Under the pieces are notes generated by a model. The model worked only from the letters and a program-made list of their open reading frames with translations, searched no databases and was not told the DNA's origin. A stretch of DNA of 34,063 nt from Bacteroidetes bacterium CG12_big_fil_rev_8_21_14_0_65_60_17 (GTDB lineage: Bacteria; Bacteroidota; Rhodothermia; Rhodothermales; UBA10348). Position numbers and translations under genes: made by a program. Every line of letters begins with the position of its first letter. Position 1 is the stretch's first letter. Below are positions 3,332 through 33,955 of the stretch, piece after piece. The DNA is taken from positions 26,497-60,559 of the forward strand of contig PCUY01000040.1 in the NCBI GenBank assembly GCA_002787815.1, read 5' to 3'.

Positions 3332-4741
3332 ATGACCCGTCTCCCGCTGTCCGTGACCGTGCTGACCCTGGCCATGCTGGTCGCCGCGTGCCAGCCAACA
3401 GGAATGGAGCCACCCGCTGCATTCCCCGGCCCACCCCTTCCCACAGGCGCTGAAACCGGACCCTCGGTCACCGTCCCGGAACTGGAAGCCCGCCGCAGCG
3501 CCCTCATGGAAGCCCTGCCCGACGCCCTGGTCCTGCTTCCTGCAGAGCCCTCGGCCAAGACCATGGAGCAGCCTGGCTGGATACAGCATCCGTCCTTTTT
3601 CTACTTCACGGGACTGCTCGAGGGAACGAACGCTGTTCTTCTGGTAGATGCGCCGCGCAGTGAGTCCGTGCTCTTTGTCGGACCCGTGCCCAGCGCCTTC
3701 GGCGCGCCGGCATCGGACGTGGCCCTGCCGGCCGATGCCTCACTCGCAGGCAGGACAGGCGTGGACCGCGTCCTCCCCTGGGACGAGTTCGTACCATACG
3801 TCACGCAGCGCCTCACGGCCGGCGCCACGCTCCACCTCGATGCCGCCCGGCGACCCGTGCCTTCAGGCTCCCCGCCCGGCATGCCCCCACTCACCGATGC
3901 AGCCAACATCTGGCGCCACGCGGTCGAGACGGCCTTTCCTGGCGCCGAGATCCACAGCGCTGCCGACGCCATTGCCGCACTGCGATGGAAAAAGTCTCCC
4001 CACGAGCAGGAACAGATCCGCCGCAATGCCATCTATTCGGCGCGTGCGCTCATGGCTGGCATGCGGGCCGTTCGCGCCGGCCTCCCCGAACGCCACGCTG
4101 AAGCCGCCGTCGTCGCCGCCTGCCTGGAGGCCGGCGCGAACGGCCCGTCCTTCTGGCCCTGGATGCAGTCCGGTCCCAATGCCCATTTTGGACGCCTCGC
4201 AAACTCATTCCACGTATATGACAACCTCAACCGCACCATGCAGGCCGGAGAACTGCTGCGCGCCGACGTCGGCTGCATGGCCGGCGGGTACGGCGGCGAC
4301 GTGGGACGGACCGTACCGGTATCGGGCCGCTTCGAGGGAGAACAGGCCTTCATCTGGGACCGGCTCGTGGAAGCCTACCATACCGGGATCCATGCCATGG
4401 CCGACGGTGTGCCATTGGATGCGGTCCGCGCCGCATCCACAGGATATCTGGAAGAGGCGATAACGAGCGGTCGGTTCACGACCCCGACCGAAGGTGACAT
4501 CCTGCGTGCCATGGCGTCGGACATCAACTGGCATATCCACAGCATTGGCGTTGAGAGCGCTGAGCCGAATACCGATGTGCTGGTCGACGGCACGGTCATT
4601 GCCTACGAGCCCATGTTCGTCTGGGGAGACCATGCCTATTATCTGGAAGACATGATCCTGGTTACCGGCGCCAGAGCAGACGTACTGACCGCCCACGTGC
4701 CGGCAACCGCCGCTGAAATGGCGGCCTTTCTGAATCCATGA
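3332..4741 (+). CDS. M24 family (Xaa-Pro) aminopeptidase-like lipoprotein
   Basis: A 469-residue protein with a creatinase N-terminal-like domain and a C-terminal 'pita-bread' M24 domain, the fold of Xaa-Pro aminopeptidases/dipeptidases that cleave before proline using two metal ions. All five metal ligands are readable: D312 (RADVG), D323 (GGDVGRT), H403 (HSIGVE), E426 (AYEPM) and E439 (LEDM). The N-terminus carries a lipoprotein signal peptide with the lipobox LVAAC (C20), so the enzyme is probably membrane-anchored outside the cytoplasm, which is unusual because most M24B enzymes are cytosolic. It starts 11 bases after the alcohol dehydrogenase and its stop overlaps the next start (ATGA). 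It could act on prolyl peptides; a non-peptide M24 substrate cannot be excluded. Confidence 0.92.
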   Translation: MTRLPLSVTVLTLAMLVAACQPTGMEPPAAFPGPPLPTGAETGPSVTVPELEARRSALMEALPDALVLLPAEPSAKTMEQPGWIQHPSFFYFTGLLEGTNAVLLVDAPRSESVLFVGPVPSAFGAPASDVALPADASLAGRTGVDRVLPWDEFVPYVTQRLTAGATLHLDAARRPVPSGSPPGMPPLTDAANIWRHAVETAFPGAEIHSAADAIAALRWKKSPHEQEQIRRNAIYSARALMAGMRAVRAGLPERHAEAAVVAACLEAGANGPSFWPWMQSGPNAHFGRLANSFHVYDNLNRTMQAGELLRADVGCMAGGYGGDVGRTVPVSGRFEGEQAFIWDRLVEAYHTGIHAMADGVPLDAVRAASTGYLEEAITSGRFTTPTEGDILRAMASDINWHIHSIGVESAEPNTDVLVDGTVIAYEPMFVWGDHAYYLEDMILVTGARADVLTAHVPATAAEMAAFLNP

Positions 4742-29342: not shown

Positions 29343-29972
29343 TCACTCCTCGGCCATGCCGACCGGCTCCCACTCCGGGCAGTCCAGCCGGTAATCGCCC
29401 GGGCCGAGTGGCTCTGACAACAGGAGGCACCGCGCGGTAGAGCGGTCCCCTTCACGGGCAAAGTGGGTGCAGATCGGGCACATCCGGGCGACTGCCACCT
29501 GCCCGTCCACGTGCAGGCCCGACACGAAACAAAGCAGCGACTCCGCCAGTGCATCCAGATCCGTTGCCGGCATGGCTCCGAGAATACGTTCATACGGTGC
29601 AGACCACGTGGCCAGATCGTTGTAAACGTTTCTTCCGTTCGCGGTGAGACGCAGGACACGGGCGCGGGCATCATCGGCGGACTTCTTCTTGTCCAGAAGA
29701 CCTTTCCTGACGAGCGAGTTCACCGCATCGCTCACGGTCGGCACCGTCAGATCAAAGTACCGTGCCAGGACAGACAGACGCGACTCCGACGCTTCATGCG
29801 TAGCTACGTGAATGAGAAGGCGAGACTGGATGGGACTCAACCCGGCATTCCCAGCCGCCTCACGAGTGGATGTCAGTATGATGTGGCCAATCCGTTCCAG
29901 CGCGGCCAAGATCTTGGCAGGACGATTCTTCGCCTGTCTCCGGGGATCCAATACGTGTTCTGCTCTGGTCAT
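29343..29972 (-). CDS. MarR-family regulator with a cysteine-rich C-terminal tail
   Basis: A 209-residue winged-helix repressor-type protein. Residues about 45-115 form the MarR DNA-binding unit (LSPIQSRLLIHVATHE, recognition helix TVPTVSDAVNSLVRKG, wing KKSADDARARVLRLT). After the dimer helices comes a tail with C148, C165, C168, H170, C182 and C198, including CPICTH, a spacing that suits zinc, iron-sulfur or redox-thiol chemistry. This tail is longer than in common MarR proteins of about 145 residues. It is divergent from the secreted-protein/DUF2024 pair with an 82-base gap bearing two dyads, so it probably controls both itself and that pair. Ligand or oxidant sensing is inferred, not shown. 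Confidence 0.88.
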   Translation of the reverse strand: MTRAEHVLDPRRQAKNRPAKILAALERIGHIILTSTREAAGNAGLSPIQSRLLIHVATHEASESRLSVLARYFDLTVPTVSDAVNSLVRKGLLDKKKSADDARARVLRLTANGRNVYNDLATWSAPYERILGAMPATDLDALAESLLCFVSGLHVDGQVAVARMCPICTHFAREGDRSTARCLLLSEPLGPGDYRLDCPEWEPVGMAEE

Positions 29973-29984
29973 GATTATATTATT

Positions 29985-29993
29985 AGGACTCCT
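29985..29993. promoter_or_regulatory. Operator-like dyad 1 near the MarR gene
   Basis: AGGACTCCT is a nine-base interrupted palindrome (AGGA-N-TCCT) lying 13 bases upstream of the MarR start codon and directly next to the -35 of the rightward promoter. With its neighbouring bases it makes a 12-base arm (29982-29993) that is exactly repeated in inverted orientation at 30024-30035. Confidence 0.6.
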
Positions 29994-30021
29994 TTGCTTT
30001 TATGATGGGACGTCGTATTAT
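29994..30021 (+). promoter_or_regulatory. Candidate promoter for the secreted protein-DUF2024 pair
   Basis: TTGCTT (29994-29999), 16-base spacer, TATTAT (30016-30021). The predicted start falls at about 30028, in the centre of dyad 2, and dyad 1 abuts the -35, so a bound repressor would cover both ends of the promoter. Confidence 0.5.
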
Positions 30022-30023
30022 TG

Positions 30024-30032
30024 AGGAGTCCT
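30024..30032. promoter_or_regulatory. Operator-like dyad 2 over the predicted transcription start
   Basis: AGGAGTCCT (AGGA-N-TCCT) with its flank forms a 12-base arm (30024-30035) that is the exact reverse complement of 29982-29993. Dyad centres are 39 bases apart. It lies 22 bases before the secreted-protein start. Confidence 0.6.
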
Positions 30033-30054
30033 AATCATAAACCTCGGTACTTCC

Positions 30055-30813
30055 ATGCTCCCCTGCCGTTCCCGATTCGCTCCTGCGCCGCATTTGCCAT
30101 GGCTTGCGCTTCTCGCACTGACAATGATCAGTGTCCCTGCCGCCGCACAGCAGACCGATGGCGGCGCGCCCGCCGCTACGAACGACCTTGATATTACTGC
30201 TGCCCACGTCGAGATCCTGCATGAACTCGAACTGGCGGTTTTTGAAATCTCCGTAGAAGGCCGAGCCGGCCACACCATACCCGAAGCCGCCGGGCAACTC
30301 GACGGAGCTCCGGTTCTCGGGTATGTTTTTCCTACTACGCTCAAACCGGAGGACGTCGGATTCGCACCCGGAGACGGCATTGTCGCCCTGGCGGCGACAT
30401 CACATCCCGATTTTGACGACACCCCTCTCTGGGATGAAGGCGCAAATGGAGTGTATGACGACGATGGACGGATTTTCCACTCACACTGGGTAGTCCTCGT
30501 GCCCGATGATCGTGTTGCTGGCGGCCTGTCCGTCAAAGCGACGCAGAACGTCGAATCCGACCTGCCACCCACAGCTCCCGGCATGCCCATGTACCTCGAT
30601 TCACCTGGATTCCAGGTCGTCTTGCGCGACGGGTTGCTCAAAATTATTGTACCTCTGTTCCGAATGTCGAACAGAACCGACTTCCAGTTCGATGCCGTAT
30701 CGGCCTACATGCGCGTCAATACGTCACAGCCAGACGCCCCCATGCTGGGAGTCTTCAAGGTTTACAGCGTGCTCTCATCCGATCTCAGCCTTCCCTACAC
30801 CGTCGATCAGTAA
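30055..30813 (+). CDS. Secreted protein of unknown function, in the MarR divergon
   Basis: A 252-residue exported protein. An N-terminal basic segment and hydrophobic run (LPWLALLALTMISV, cleavage after PAAAQ) form a signal peptide. The mature body, of about 220 residues, has a beta-rich appearance with well-formed blocks: GAPVLGYVFPTTLKPEDVGF, ATSHPDFDDTPLWDEG, DGRIFHSHWVVLVPDDR, GMPMYLDSPGFQVV and a closing VFKVYSVLSSDLSLPYTV. Its mature part has no cysteine. The repeated Asp-rich and His-Ser-His pieces could bind a metal. I do not recognise a named domain. It lies 22 bases before DUF2024 and next to the operator-like dyads, so it is the likely regulated target of the MarR protein. Confidence 0.85.
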   Translation: MLPCRSRFAPAPHLPWLALLALTMISVPAAAQQTDGGAPAATNDLDITAAHVEILHELELAVFEISVEGRAGHTIPEAAGQLDGAPVLGYVFPTTLKPEDVGFAPGDGIVALAATSHPDFDDTPLWDEGANGVYDDDGRIFHSHWVVLVPDDRVAGGLSVKATQNVESDLPPTAPGMPMYLDSPGFQVVLRDGLLKIIVPLFRMSNRTDFQFDAVSAYMRVNTSQPDAPMLGVFKVYSVLSSDLSLPYTVDQ

Positions 30814-30835
30814 CACAAGGCAGGAGTAAAACACC

Positions 30836-31096
30836 ATGAAAATCGCCGTCTGGGACACCTGTGTACCCCGCTCGGACAACGGTCACACCATGCATTTCGA
30901 CATCCTCGTTCCCGATGGAACGCCGTTCCCGGAGGTTCAACGATATGGCCGGGAATACCTGGCAACGAAGGGCCAGTGTGGACAGCCCCTCACCACAAGC
31001 GAATGCCAGTATTGCCACTCCGAGTCGGCATCCGCTTCCGCAGAAACGGACATCAGGGCCTCCGGATATGCCATCATTGAAATGGAGAATTGCTGA
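30836..31096 (+). CDS. DUF2024 family small protein
   Basis: An 86-residue cytosolic protein matching DUF2024: it opens MKIAVWDTCVPR, continues GHTMHFDILVPDG, has YGREYLATKGQCGQPLT and ends YAIIEMENC. It has five cysteines: C9, C48, C57, C60 and the terminal C86; C57-x2-C60-H61 suggests a metal or thiol site. I know of no established function for the family. An AGGAG site nine bases upstream of ATG supports the start. It follows the secreted-protein gene by 22 bases and is probably cotranscribed under MarR control. Confidence 0.93.
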   Translation: MKIAVWDTCVPRSDNGHTMHFDILVPDGTPFPEVQRYGREYLATKGQCGQPLTTSECQYCHSESASASAETDIRASGYAIIEMENC

Positions 31097-31264: not shown

Positions 31265-32593
31265 ATGTCCACACGCCGCCAGTTTCTCCGCCGCACCGGC
31301 CTCGCCACAGCCGCCCTCGCCCTTCCTCTCGGTCCGGCAAGCCGCCCCGGGTCACCGCTCCGTACGCCGCTCCGTACGCCGCCCGCCGCAGCACCACTTC
31401 TGCCCGCTCCGGGCCGCGCACCCGGTGAAGACTTCTGGGAAGATGTTGCGGCCCGGTATGAAACCACCGACCGGATCACGAACCTGGAAGGCGGCTACTG
31501 GGGCATGATGGCCGCGCCAGTGCTTGACGCGTTCCAGCGCCACACGGCCCGGGTCAACCGGGAGAATTCGTTCTACGCCCGCACGCAGTTCAATCGCGAT
31601 GCAGAGGCCGTGCGGGAGCGCGTAGCCGCCCTGCTCGACGTTGCCCCGGGGGAAATCGCCTTCTCCCGGAACGCCACCGAGGCCCTGCAGGCCCTGATTG
31701 GACAGTACAACAGGCTCGAGACCGGCGAGACGGTCATGTATGCCGACCTGGACTACCCTGCCATGCAGCATGCCATGAACGCGCTCGCCGCCCGGCGCCG
31801 GGCCGAAGTGGCGACACTCGTCATCCCCGAGCCTGCCGAATCTGCCGGGCAGATTGTGGATGCGTACGCCGAGGCCTTCGACGCGCATCCGCGCACGCGG
31901 CTCCTTCTGGTCACGCACGCCAACAACAAGACCGGACTCATCCACCCTGTTGGCGACATCACGGCGCTGGCGCGCGCCCGCGGCATTGATGTGATTGTCG
32001 ATGCCGCGCACTCCTGGGGCCACGTACCCTTTGACGTGGCCGGATTCGGCGCGGACTACGTGGGCATGAATCTGCACAAATGGATGGGCGCGCCACTCGG
32101 TATCGGTGCCATGTATATCCGTGCGGCAGGCCTTGCCGCCATTGACCGGGCCCACGGGGACACGGGCAGCCTTGACGCCATTGACAGCCGCCTGCACACG
32201 GGCACCACGAACTTTGCAACCACACTCACGGTCAATGATGCCCTGGACTTCCAGCAGTCCGTGGGGTTTGAGAACAAATACGCCCGCGTTCGGCACCTGC
32301 GCGACCTCTGGGTGCGCGAGGCCCGCACCATGGACGGCGTCGACATCCTCACGCCCGATGATCCGGACCTCGTGGGCGCCATTACCAGCTTCCGCCTGCA
32401 TGGCCGGACATCGGGCGAGGAAAACCGTGCCCTGGTTCGGACCCTTGCCGAAGAATACGGCATTTTCACTGTCGCCCGGACGGGCATTGCCGGCGGCGAT
32501 TGCATCCGCGTCACTCCCGCGCTCTACAACCTGCCACCGGATCTCGAAAAACTGGTCGCGGCGTTGCGCGACCTGGCGGCGAAGCGTGGCTGA
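31265..32593 (+). CDS. Tat-signal class V PLP aminotransferase-fold enzyme (isopenicillin N epimerase-like)
   Basis: A 442-residue PLP enzyme of the aminotransferase class V/cysteine desulfurase fold, closest in style to CefD-like 'isopenicillin N epimerase' relatives. The PLP lysine is K272 in NLHKWMG; VDAAHSWG holds the ring aspartate; SRNATEALQ and GTTNFAT are family blocks. The N-terminus begins MSTRRQFLRRTGLATAALALP, cut here to its key elements: twin arginines (R4-R5), F7-L8, then a hydrophobic run, a Tat export signal. The start at 31265 is chosen because this signal begins there. A Pro/Arg-rich linker with a 12-base tandem repeat follows. The substrate is unknown. A preceding 168-base gap separates it from DUF2024. 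Confidence 0.9.
   Translation: MSTRRQFLRRTGLATAALALPLGPASRPGSPLRTPLRTPPAAAPLLPAPGRAPGEDFWEDVAARYETTDRITNLEGGYWGMMAAPVLDAFQRHTARVNRENSFYARTQFNRDAEAVRERVAALLDVAPGEIAFSRNATEALQALIGQYNRLETGETVMYADLDYPAMQHAMNALAARRRAEVATLVIPEPAESAGQIVDAYAEAFDAHPRTRLLLVTHANNKTGLIHPVGDITALARARGIDVIVDAAHSWGHVPFDVAGFGADYVGMNLHKWMGAPLGIGAMYIRAAGLAAIDRAHGDTGSLDAIDSRLHTGTTNFATTLTVNDALDFQQSVGFENKYARVRHLRDLWVREARTMDGVDILTPDDPDLVGAITSFRLHGRTSGEENRALVRTLAEEYGIFTVARTGIAGGDCIRVTPALYNLPPDLEKLVAALRDLAAKRG
31356..31379 (+). repeat. Tandem 12-base repeat in the linker of the Tat-signal PLP enzyme
   Basis: CGCTCCGTACGC occurs twice back to back (31356-31367 and 31368-31379), encoding a repeated LRTP. It lies between signal peptide and catalytic domain, where length changes should be tolerated. 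Confidence 0.85.
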
Positions 32594-33117: not shown

Positions 33118-33639
33118 TCAACTCTCGTTGAAAAGCTTCTGAATGGTTCTCATGGGCAGATATAGATGCAATCTGTCGTCCGCCAATTCCTGAAAACCGT
33201 ACTGCCCGTAGAATCTTTTTGCATCGTCTGTTTTCGCGTCCACCTCAACCGCCGCTATACCGATCTCCTCAGCCAGCAGGAGCGACCGTCTCAGAGCGTC
33301 CATCAACAGCAACGCTCCAATCCCCGATCCACGAGCATCAACGCTGGTCGCCAGGCGCCCGAGCCTGACGACGGGAACCGGATAACGGGGCAGCTTCCTG
33401 GCTTCCTGCTCCGCCAAGTTCGAATAGGAGATTTCCCCATTGGAAATGCAGTAGTAACCCAAAATGAATGTGCTGCCAGGATGTACCGCCACGTATGTGA
33501 CACTGATTCCTTTTCGTGCATTCTGCGTGGCATAGCGCTTCAGGAACACATTCAGATCGTCAATTCCACAGTCGAACGAATCTTTTTGATGTGCTTTACC
33601 CAGGCGAACAATCCGAATGTTTCCCGGACCAGCGCCCAT
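33118..33639 (-). CDS. GNAT acetyltransferase toxin (TacT-like)
   Basis: A 173-residue GNAT protein. It carries the TacT-type N-terminal motif FDCGIDDLNVFLKRYA (about 22-37), the acetyl-CoA loop in RGSGIG (R103-G108) within LGRLATSVDARGSG, and AKRFYGQYGF (Y144 as probable catalytic tyrosine region). TacT-like toxins acetylate the amino group of charged aminoacyl-tRNA and so stop translation. The gene directly follows the DUF1778 antitoxin with one base between stop and start, as in known pairs, which strongly supports the call. The target tRNA is not predictable. Confidence 0.93.
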   Translation of the reverse strand: MGAGPGNIRIVRLGKAHQKDSFDCGIDDLNVFLKRYATQNARKGISVTYVAVHPGSTFILGYYCISNGEISYSNLAEQEARKLPRYPVPVVRLGRLATSVDARGSGIGALLLMDALRRSLLLAEEIGIAAVEVDAKTDDAKRFYGQYGFQELADDRLHLYLPMRTIQKLFNES

Positions 33640-33640
33640 G

Positions 33641-33955
33641 CTACCCGGAAATCCTCCTCCGGTACTGTCTCAAAGCGTCGGACAGTTTGGCATTCGGTTC
33701 CGTATCGTCCCGAAGCATGTCGTTGAATTTTTCCCAATCTCCCAGAGTGAGCTCTGTTGACTTGTGTTCTCTGATAATCCTGGCTGACCTGTCAAGCAAT
33801 GTCGACAGAACGTATGAGGTCAATGACTCACCTGACAAGGCAGCGGCCTTCTCTATCAGGGATTTTTGGGATTCCGTCGACCTCAGATCGAGTCGTGCCT
33901 TCTTCGGGGAGTCATCGCGCGTGGCATGATCCGGATGAGTAGACGCAGTTGACAT
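33641..33955 (-). CDS. DUF1778 antitoxin (TacA-like, ribbon-helix-helix)
   Basis: A 104-residue DUF1778 protein. The ribbon-helix-helix DNA-binding unit is about residues 19-55 (ARLDLRSTESQKSLIEKAAALSG, a start strand then two helices, given here in part), followed by SLTSYVLSTLLDRSARIIREH and a disordered, charged C-terminal tail that in TacA wraps the toxin (LTLGDWEKFNDMLRDD). It is encoded before the GNAT toxin with a one-base gap, so it probably neutralises the toxin and represses the operon through the nearby inverted repeat. Confidence 0.93.
   Translation of the reverse strand: MSTASTHPDHATRDDSPKKARLDLRSTESQKSLIEKAAALSGESLTSYVLSTLLDRSARIIREHKSTELTLGDWEKFNDMLRDDTEPNAKLSDALRQYRRRISG

Follow-up and report, generated by a model that had tools for sequence, protein, structure and literature searches.

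The locus described here raises the question of whether a MarR-type regulator with a cysteine-bearing tail controls the two genes that face it, and to which signal such a regulator might respond. The locus is found in a stretch of 34,063 nt from a Rhodothermales (Bacteroidota) genome, the whole of which is referred to as the window. A preliminary description, made from the sequence alone, had proposed a divergent three-gene cluster, in which the tail would read metal or redox state and control a secreted protein and a DUF2024 protein. ORF positions and Pfam matches place all three genes as described, and the motif residues that had been named in MarR and DUF2024 are all present in the window proteins. 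The genes are:

29343-29972, minus strand: predicted Cys4-tailed MarR-family repressor, 209 aa (Pfam MarR_2, 5.4e-12; also HTH_27 and MarR)
30055-30813, plus strand: secreted beta-sandwich protein, 252 aa (signal peptide at about residues 1-31)
30836-31096, plus strand: DUF2024 protein, 86 aa (PF09630, 2.6e-27)

The starts of the divergent MarR and secreted-protein genes are 82 bp apart, and the gap between them has a G+C content of 38%, compared with 61% in the window. A promoter scan of this control region gave no more than was found in shuffled sequences. The DUF2024 gene is 22 bp 3′ of the secreted-protein gene, has its own AGGAG ribosome site, and is part of the same operon. Directly 3′ of DUF2024 is a class-V aminotransferase gene with a Tat signal (31265-32593, plus strand), which was not seen to recur at other loci. 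Further downstream (33118-33955, minus strand), a GNAT acetyltransferase and a TacA1-like antitoxin (PF08681, 5.5e-20) form a TacAT-type toxin-antitoxin pair, with a G+C content (52%) below that of the window.

The secreted protein had been described as belonging to no recognised family, and Pfam and NCBIfam scans bear this out: no family was found for it, and none of 50 members has a Pfam match. By these scans it is an undescribed family. Residues H117, D119, D121, D122, D127, E128, H142, H144 and D182 are invariant across the 50 sequences. The AF2 model has a pLDDT of 86.7, and a Foldseek search with it gave nothing below E 0.2. The best match of a further structure comparison, the ethylbenzene dehydrogenase gamma subunit (2ivf_C; 150 residues, Z 7.2), falls in a range that the tool rates as common and was not used as evidence.

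The DUF2024 protein matches PF09630 with 95 bits over the entire profile (1-81 of 81), and is related to the solved chain 2hfq_A (E 6e-13). Like PF09630 and PDB 2hfq it is full-length, with conserved H20, C57-x2-C60-H61 and C86. The thiol motif proposed earlier is thus retained for C57, C60, H61 and C86, but not for C9 and C48, which are not conserved across homologues. The window member differs from the DUF2024 family as known in its placement in an apparent Cys4-MarR regulon. Thaumarchaea oxidise ammonia and encounter NO and hydroxylamine. An archaeal survey (PMC6393860) lists DUF2024 for 29/30 thaumarchaeal genomes.

An alignment of three relatives of the secreted protein was used to search a genome collection and found 154 places, from which 80 loci were fetched. 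These span Bacteroidota, Gemmatimonadota, Cyanobacteria, Acidobacteriota, Myxococcota, Actinobacteria, Verrucomicrobia and Alphaproteobacteria. Although the loci were found via the secreted protein alone, 74 of the 80 carry Cys4-MarR genes (76 genes, forming one cluster), mostly directly beside the secreted gene or within its operon; in Alphaproteobacteria the two are usually divergent. In Moorena bouillonii (L016), a block of mini-thioredoxin, secreted protein and MarR is tandemly repeated on one contig. A set of 198 genomes from the window's phylum includes 17 with MarR-Cys4, 13 with DUF2024 and 6 with the secreted protein. MarR and DUF2024 are common to 10 genomes (10/17 of those with MarR; hypergeometric p 2.5e-10), MarR and the secreted protein to 5 (p 1.5e-5), and the secreted protein and DUF2024 to 5 (p 3.1e-6), all of these p-values being optimistic as the genomes are related. 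MarR and DUF2024 are neighbours, about 1 kb or less apart, in 10/10 genomes that hold both. Thus the three genes associate far above chance, both in the 80 loci and in the 198 genomes, as the preliminary description would lead one to expect.

The unit is nonetheless modular, and the secreted protein and DUF2024 are each found with MarR without the other. Operons of mini-thioredoxin, DUF2024 and MarR without the secreted gene are present in L173, L174 and L176-L178. Genome G217 carries the secreted gene but gave no match to MarR, and the operator is also missing near the gene there. In the window's own family MarR is found in 0/26 other genomes, and a close MarR is present in 2/33 genomes of the rest of the order. 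This rarity in the window's own group suggests that the unit was acquired by lateral transfer; several relatives are plasmid-borne.

Matching dyads had been noted in the gap between the divergent genes. They are real, and correspond to two copies of a conserved palindromic operator. The 16-nt inverted repeat (29978-29993 / 30024-30039) is more aptly seen as a pair of operator copies, both of them palindromes in their own right. The operator copies, and the helix predicted to read them, are:

29984-29994: operator copy 1, TAGGACTCCTT (core AGGACTCCT, 29985-29993), 12 bp upstream of the MarR start
30023-30033: operator copy 2, GAGGAGTCCTA (core AGGAGTCCT, 30024-30032), 32 bp upstream of the secreted-protein start
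29706-29744, minus strand: recognition helix of MarR, residues 77-89, with specificity residue D82

The centres of the two copies are 39 bp apart, each copy is one mismatch from TAGGANTCCTA, and the pair is set clearly apart from every other partial match in its own genome. The AGGA-N-TCCT palindrome is also found upstream of homologous operons. With up to one mismatch, TTAGGANTCCTAA has 31 matches in 14.6 kb upstream of core genes, compared with 5 in 357 kb elsewhere, and this AGGA-type operator is used by the window and most other phyla. The counterpart in Alphaproteobacteria, TA(G/T)CGA-N-TCG(A/C)TA, is enriched about 700-fold between the MarR and secreted-protein genes; TAKCGANTCGMTA (up to one mismatch) has 72 matches in 10.0 kb of MarR/secreted intergenic DNA, compared with 5 in 612 kb outside these regions at the same loci. 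It is present in 43/50 divergent intergenic regions, where copies commonly come in pairs at a distance of 28 bp (so in 29 neighbouring pairs). About 10% of the homologous loci are without a recognisable operator.

The operator type tracks residue 82 of the recognition helix. This residue is Asp or Glu in 47/49 homologues with AGGA-type operators (AGGANTCCT) and Gln in 44/44 homologues with TAKCGA-type operators (TAKCGANTCGMTA). Shared ancestry contributes to this split, which is still strong sequence evidence, and because of it the window MarR almost certainly binds the AGGA-type operator. Operator binding and the assignment of regulated genes are strongly supported by these sequence comparisons. 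Of the sensor-effector unit proposed earlier, MarR control of the secreted protein and DUF2024 is backed by the conserved operator and by the covariation of helix and operator, whereas a fixed trio of genes is not found. By these comparisons the regulon is local. When the operator was searched for in the window's own genome and in six from Alphaproteobacteria, good sites lay at the MarR/secreted locus; a wider regulon was rejected, other operator matches being roughly no more frequent than with a reversed-pattern control. Two further perfect sites in G184 are inside an ORF or downstream of genes, and not at promoters.

Protoglobin or cytochrome P460 can replace the secreted protein and DUF2024 beside MarR and the operator. 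The operator is found upstream of protoglobin in L172, L179, L180 and L181, and upstream of cytochrome P460 in L182, L183 and the Thermus loci L090 and L196. The secreted gene and DUF2024 are absent from all of these except L179, in which two protoglobins accompany DUF2024, and in L034 protoglobin is found together with both DUF2024 and the secreted gene. In G127, P460 is on a different contig from MarR and has a perfect operator 39 bp upstream. No operator within 2 mismatches was found at protoglobin and P460 genes sampled in eight MarR-free genomes. In the 198 genomes, 5 of 14 protoglobin matches are within 2 kb of one of the 17 Cys4-MarR genes. The neighbours that recur in the 80 loci are MOSC (22), a TlpA/AhpC-like redoxin (16), mini-thioredoxin (14) and the tyrosine-coordinated heme protein HTHP (11); MOSC and mini-thioredoxin could indicate sulfur or thiol chemistry. 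Genes near MarR in annotated plasmids encode NnrS, hemerythrin, truncated haemoglobin, Rrf2, cbb3 oxidase, catalase, Hmp and thiol peroxidase, and peroxidase-related enzymes are also among the neighbours of MarR loci.

The MarR protein itself has an ordinary core, with 46.1 bits to PF12802 (cut-off 27) and 26.8 to PF01047 (cut-off 24.6). Its AF2 model (pLDDT 91.5) has the MarR fold, with Z 13-15 to MepR, ST1710 and FabT (Z 15.0 across 137 residues for MepR). It falls short of the AdcR/ZitR zinc subfamily NF038251 (24.9 bits, cut-off 175) and of the OhrR peroxide regulators NF052638 (19.0 bits, cut-off 200), and Pfam and NCBIfam scans give MarR-type and other winged-helix families, with no Rrf2 domain. 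MarR regulators with sensing cysteines are known. The solved MarR structures cover about residues 9-160 of the window protein and leave uncovered the following feature:

29379-29480, minus strand: Cys4 tail, C165-x2-C168-x13-C182-x15-C198, a putative metal or Fe-S site

All four cysteines are Cys in 103/103 homologues from many phyla, in a set for which most loci were collected via the secreted protein and the later ones via a profile that includes the tail. In an alignment of 52 MarR proteins just eight columns show no variation, half of them being C165, C168, C182 and C198. The last spacing is 15 in 77/77 matched tails. H170, also listed as a motif residue in the preliminary description, did not hold up in the same way, being H in 57 of the 103 homologues, Y in 23, F in 22 and Q in 1. 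A sensor role for the Cys4 tail is plausible.

Taken with the operator and its targets, the tail points to a dedicated MarR stress switch, local and probably autoregulated, in which a repressor with a Cys4-held cofactor would be released from DNA by reactive species to turn on a detoxification operon; we consider this the probable reading. A MarR dimer very probably binds both AGGANTCCT palindromes in the gap that separates the divergent promoters. When bound it would, by the precedent of other MarR proteins, keep MarR, the secreted protein and DUF2024 low, so that MarR would act as repressor of the operon and of its own gene. The four cysteines, being invariant, may be ligands of a metal or of a [4Fe-4S]/[2Fe-2S] cluster. 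Exposure to reactive nitrogen species (NO, hydroxylamine, nitroxyl) or to a related oxidant would destroy or alter this site, upon which the repressor would leave the DNA and a small detoxification or repair operon would be made. Its output would depend on lineage, and could comprise the secreted protein, DUF2024, mini-thioredoxin, TlpA-like redoxin, HTHP heme protein, protoglobin or cytochrome P460; for the secreted protein and DUF2024 a role in detoxification or repair is thus suggested. Reactive nitrogen is preferred as the signal in view of the repeated presence of protoglobin, P460, NnrS, hemerythrin and globins; catalase, HTHP, thiol peroxidase and redoxin are also found as neighbours, and these fit peroxide as well as reactive nitrogen. 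MarR may therefore be released by reactive nitrogen or by reactive oxygen species.

An alternative is that the Cys4 tail binds zinc solely to stabilise the dimer, and that MarR responds to a small molecule bound in the pocket typical of its family. A CxxC and two further cysteines with bulky hydrophobics are a common structural-zinc pattern, and one tail weakly matches the double zinc ribbon PF18912 (E 0.0066). The tail is also ordered in the AF2 model (block pLDDT 84-94 to residue 200), on an ordinary MarR core. However the invariance of all four cysteines, with just four other invariant columns, and the redox- and heme-rich target set better fit sensing, and zinc and sensing are compatible, as in redox zinc switches. 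We regard a purely structural zinc as somewhat unlikely.

The neighbours bear in addition on a metal-free thiol or peroxide sensor, whose tail cysteines would form disulfides under oxidative stress by a logic like that of OhrR or MgrA. The redoxin (16 loci), mini-thioredoxin (14) and HTHP (11), with catalase, thiol peroxidase and peroxidase-related enzymes nearby, are in keeping with it, but cytochrome P460, protoglobin, NnrS and hemerythrin indicate nitrogen species, and a disulfide switch would need less than four invariant cysteines and a constant x15 spacing, which makes such a sensor unlikely. The use of protoglobin and P460 as substitutes points to reactive nitrogen or redox stress rather than to metal homeostasis. 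A unit in which the tail senses free metal, and the His/Asp-rich secreted protein and DUF2024 bind it, is very improbable: conserved His and Asp in the former, C-x2-C-H and the label 'metal-binding' in the archaeal survey (PMC6393860) for the latter, and ArsR- and MerT-like genes beside the pair in L006 (by eye) would agree with it, but no metal transporter, chaperone or efflux gene is recurrent across loci, and the genes that substitute for the secreted protein and DUF2024 encode heme and redox proteins.

For the preferred stress switch, the kind of cofactor was pursued through sequence comparison of the tail. The best PDB sequence match of the tail profile is PioC, a HiPIP, with a non-significant E of 0.77. 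The tail spacing C-x2-C-x11..16-C-x15-C resembles the C-x2-C-x13..16-C-x11..15-C of aligned HiPIPs, with an aromatic residue soon after CxxC. When HiPIP segments (sequences checked against PDB or Pfam) were scored against the tail profile, 0 to 16 of 400 Cys-fixed shuffles (0-4%) reached their score; five other cysteine modules gave no score. However hhalign of tail and HiPIP gives a probability of 10%, and PF01355 (HiPIP), which does match true HiPIPs, has no match in 20 tails at E up to 1. Unlike PF01355 members and PioC, the MarR tail lies in the cytoplasm as an extension of a DNA-binding protein. A HiPIP-like cluster in the tail is a lead, and not a result. It is a doubtful but specific proposal that MarR with a HiPIP-like [4Fe-4S] tail is a new iron-sulfur sensor class for nitric oxide or hydroxylamine stress. 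Under its control would be protoglobin, cytochrome P460, DUF2024 and a new secreted family, the last of which would itself handle reactive nitrogen outside the cytoplasm.

The winged-helix core, divergent genes and palindromic operator are shared with MepR, FabT, HpaR, OhrR and AdcR/ZitR. The Cys4-MarR proteins differ from these in their AGGA-N-TCCT or TAKCGA-N-TCGMTA operator pairs, in a distinct set of partner genes, and in an invariant C-terminal Cys4 tail to which the matched solved MarR structures do not extend. The suggested logic, a cysteine-held cofactor disrupted by NO and NO-handling targets, is similar to that of NsrR of the Rrf2 family, and Rrf2 genes lie nearby in some plasmid MarR loci; however the window MarR is of a different protein family and its cofactor is putative. 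In titles and abstracts, no paper was found that joins MarR with protoglobin, thioredoxin and operon, no relevant one that joins MarR with HiPIP or P460, and none with an invariant C-terminal Cys4 module together with such an operator pair and target set; DUF2024 is named in one paper. DUF2024 and the secreted beta-sandwich protein, both of them families whose function is unknown, thereby gain a regulator family, an operator and a hypothesis of function, and the data suggest that one lineage of MarR proteins gained a cysteine-held cofactor with which to sense redox or nitrogen stress. The Cys4-MarR gene is carried by Thermus thermophilus HB27 (TT_RS10585) and Phaeobacter inhibens DSM 17395, which makes the link directly testable.

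Several homologous loci have further genes beside MarR. In an order-level relative (L006:2297-3324), an ArsR-type regulator and a MerT/heavy-metal-domain-like protein adjoin the MarR/secreted pair, as seen by eye. A cyanobacterium (L029) has an alternative oxidase (PF01786; L029:7854-8543) and a DUF4331 protein (L029:6727-7806) 3′ of the secreted gene. On a Nostoc plasmid (L094:4971-8778), Cys4-MarR is beside an AurF-like diiron oxygenase, a glutamine amidotransferase and a globin, with two perfect operators at 4263 and 4925. The gene pair resembles dnfA/dnfC of Dirammox, but a direct identity with Dirammox was rejected, as DnfR of Alcaligenes is MocR-like (PMC9478400) and the regulator here is a MarR. 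Spirosoma/Hymenobacter-type operons have a small protein of about 90 aa directly before MarR (L034:6829-7095, L091:4731-4997, L092:4697-4984); one member checked has no Pfam match, and some end in a Cys pair.
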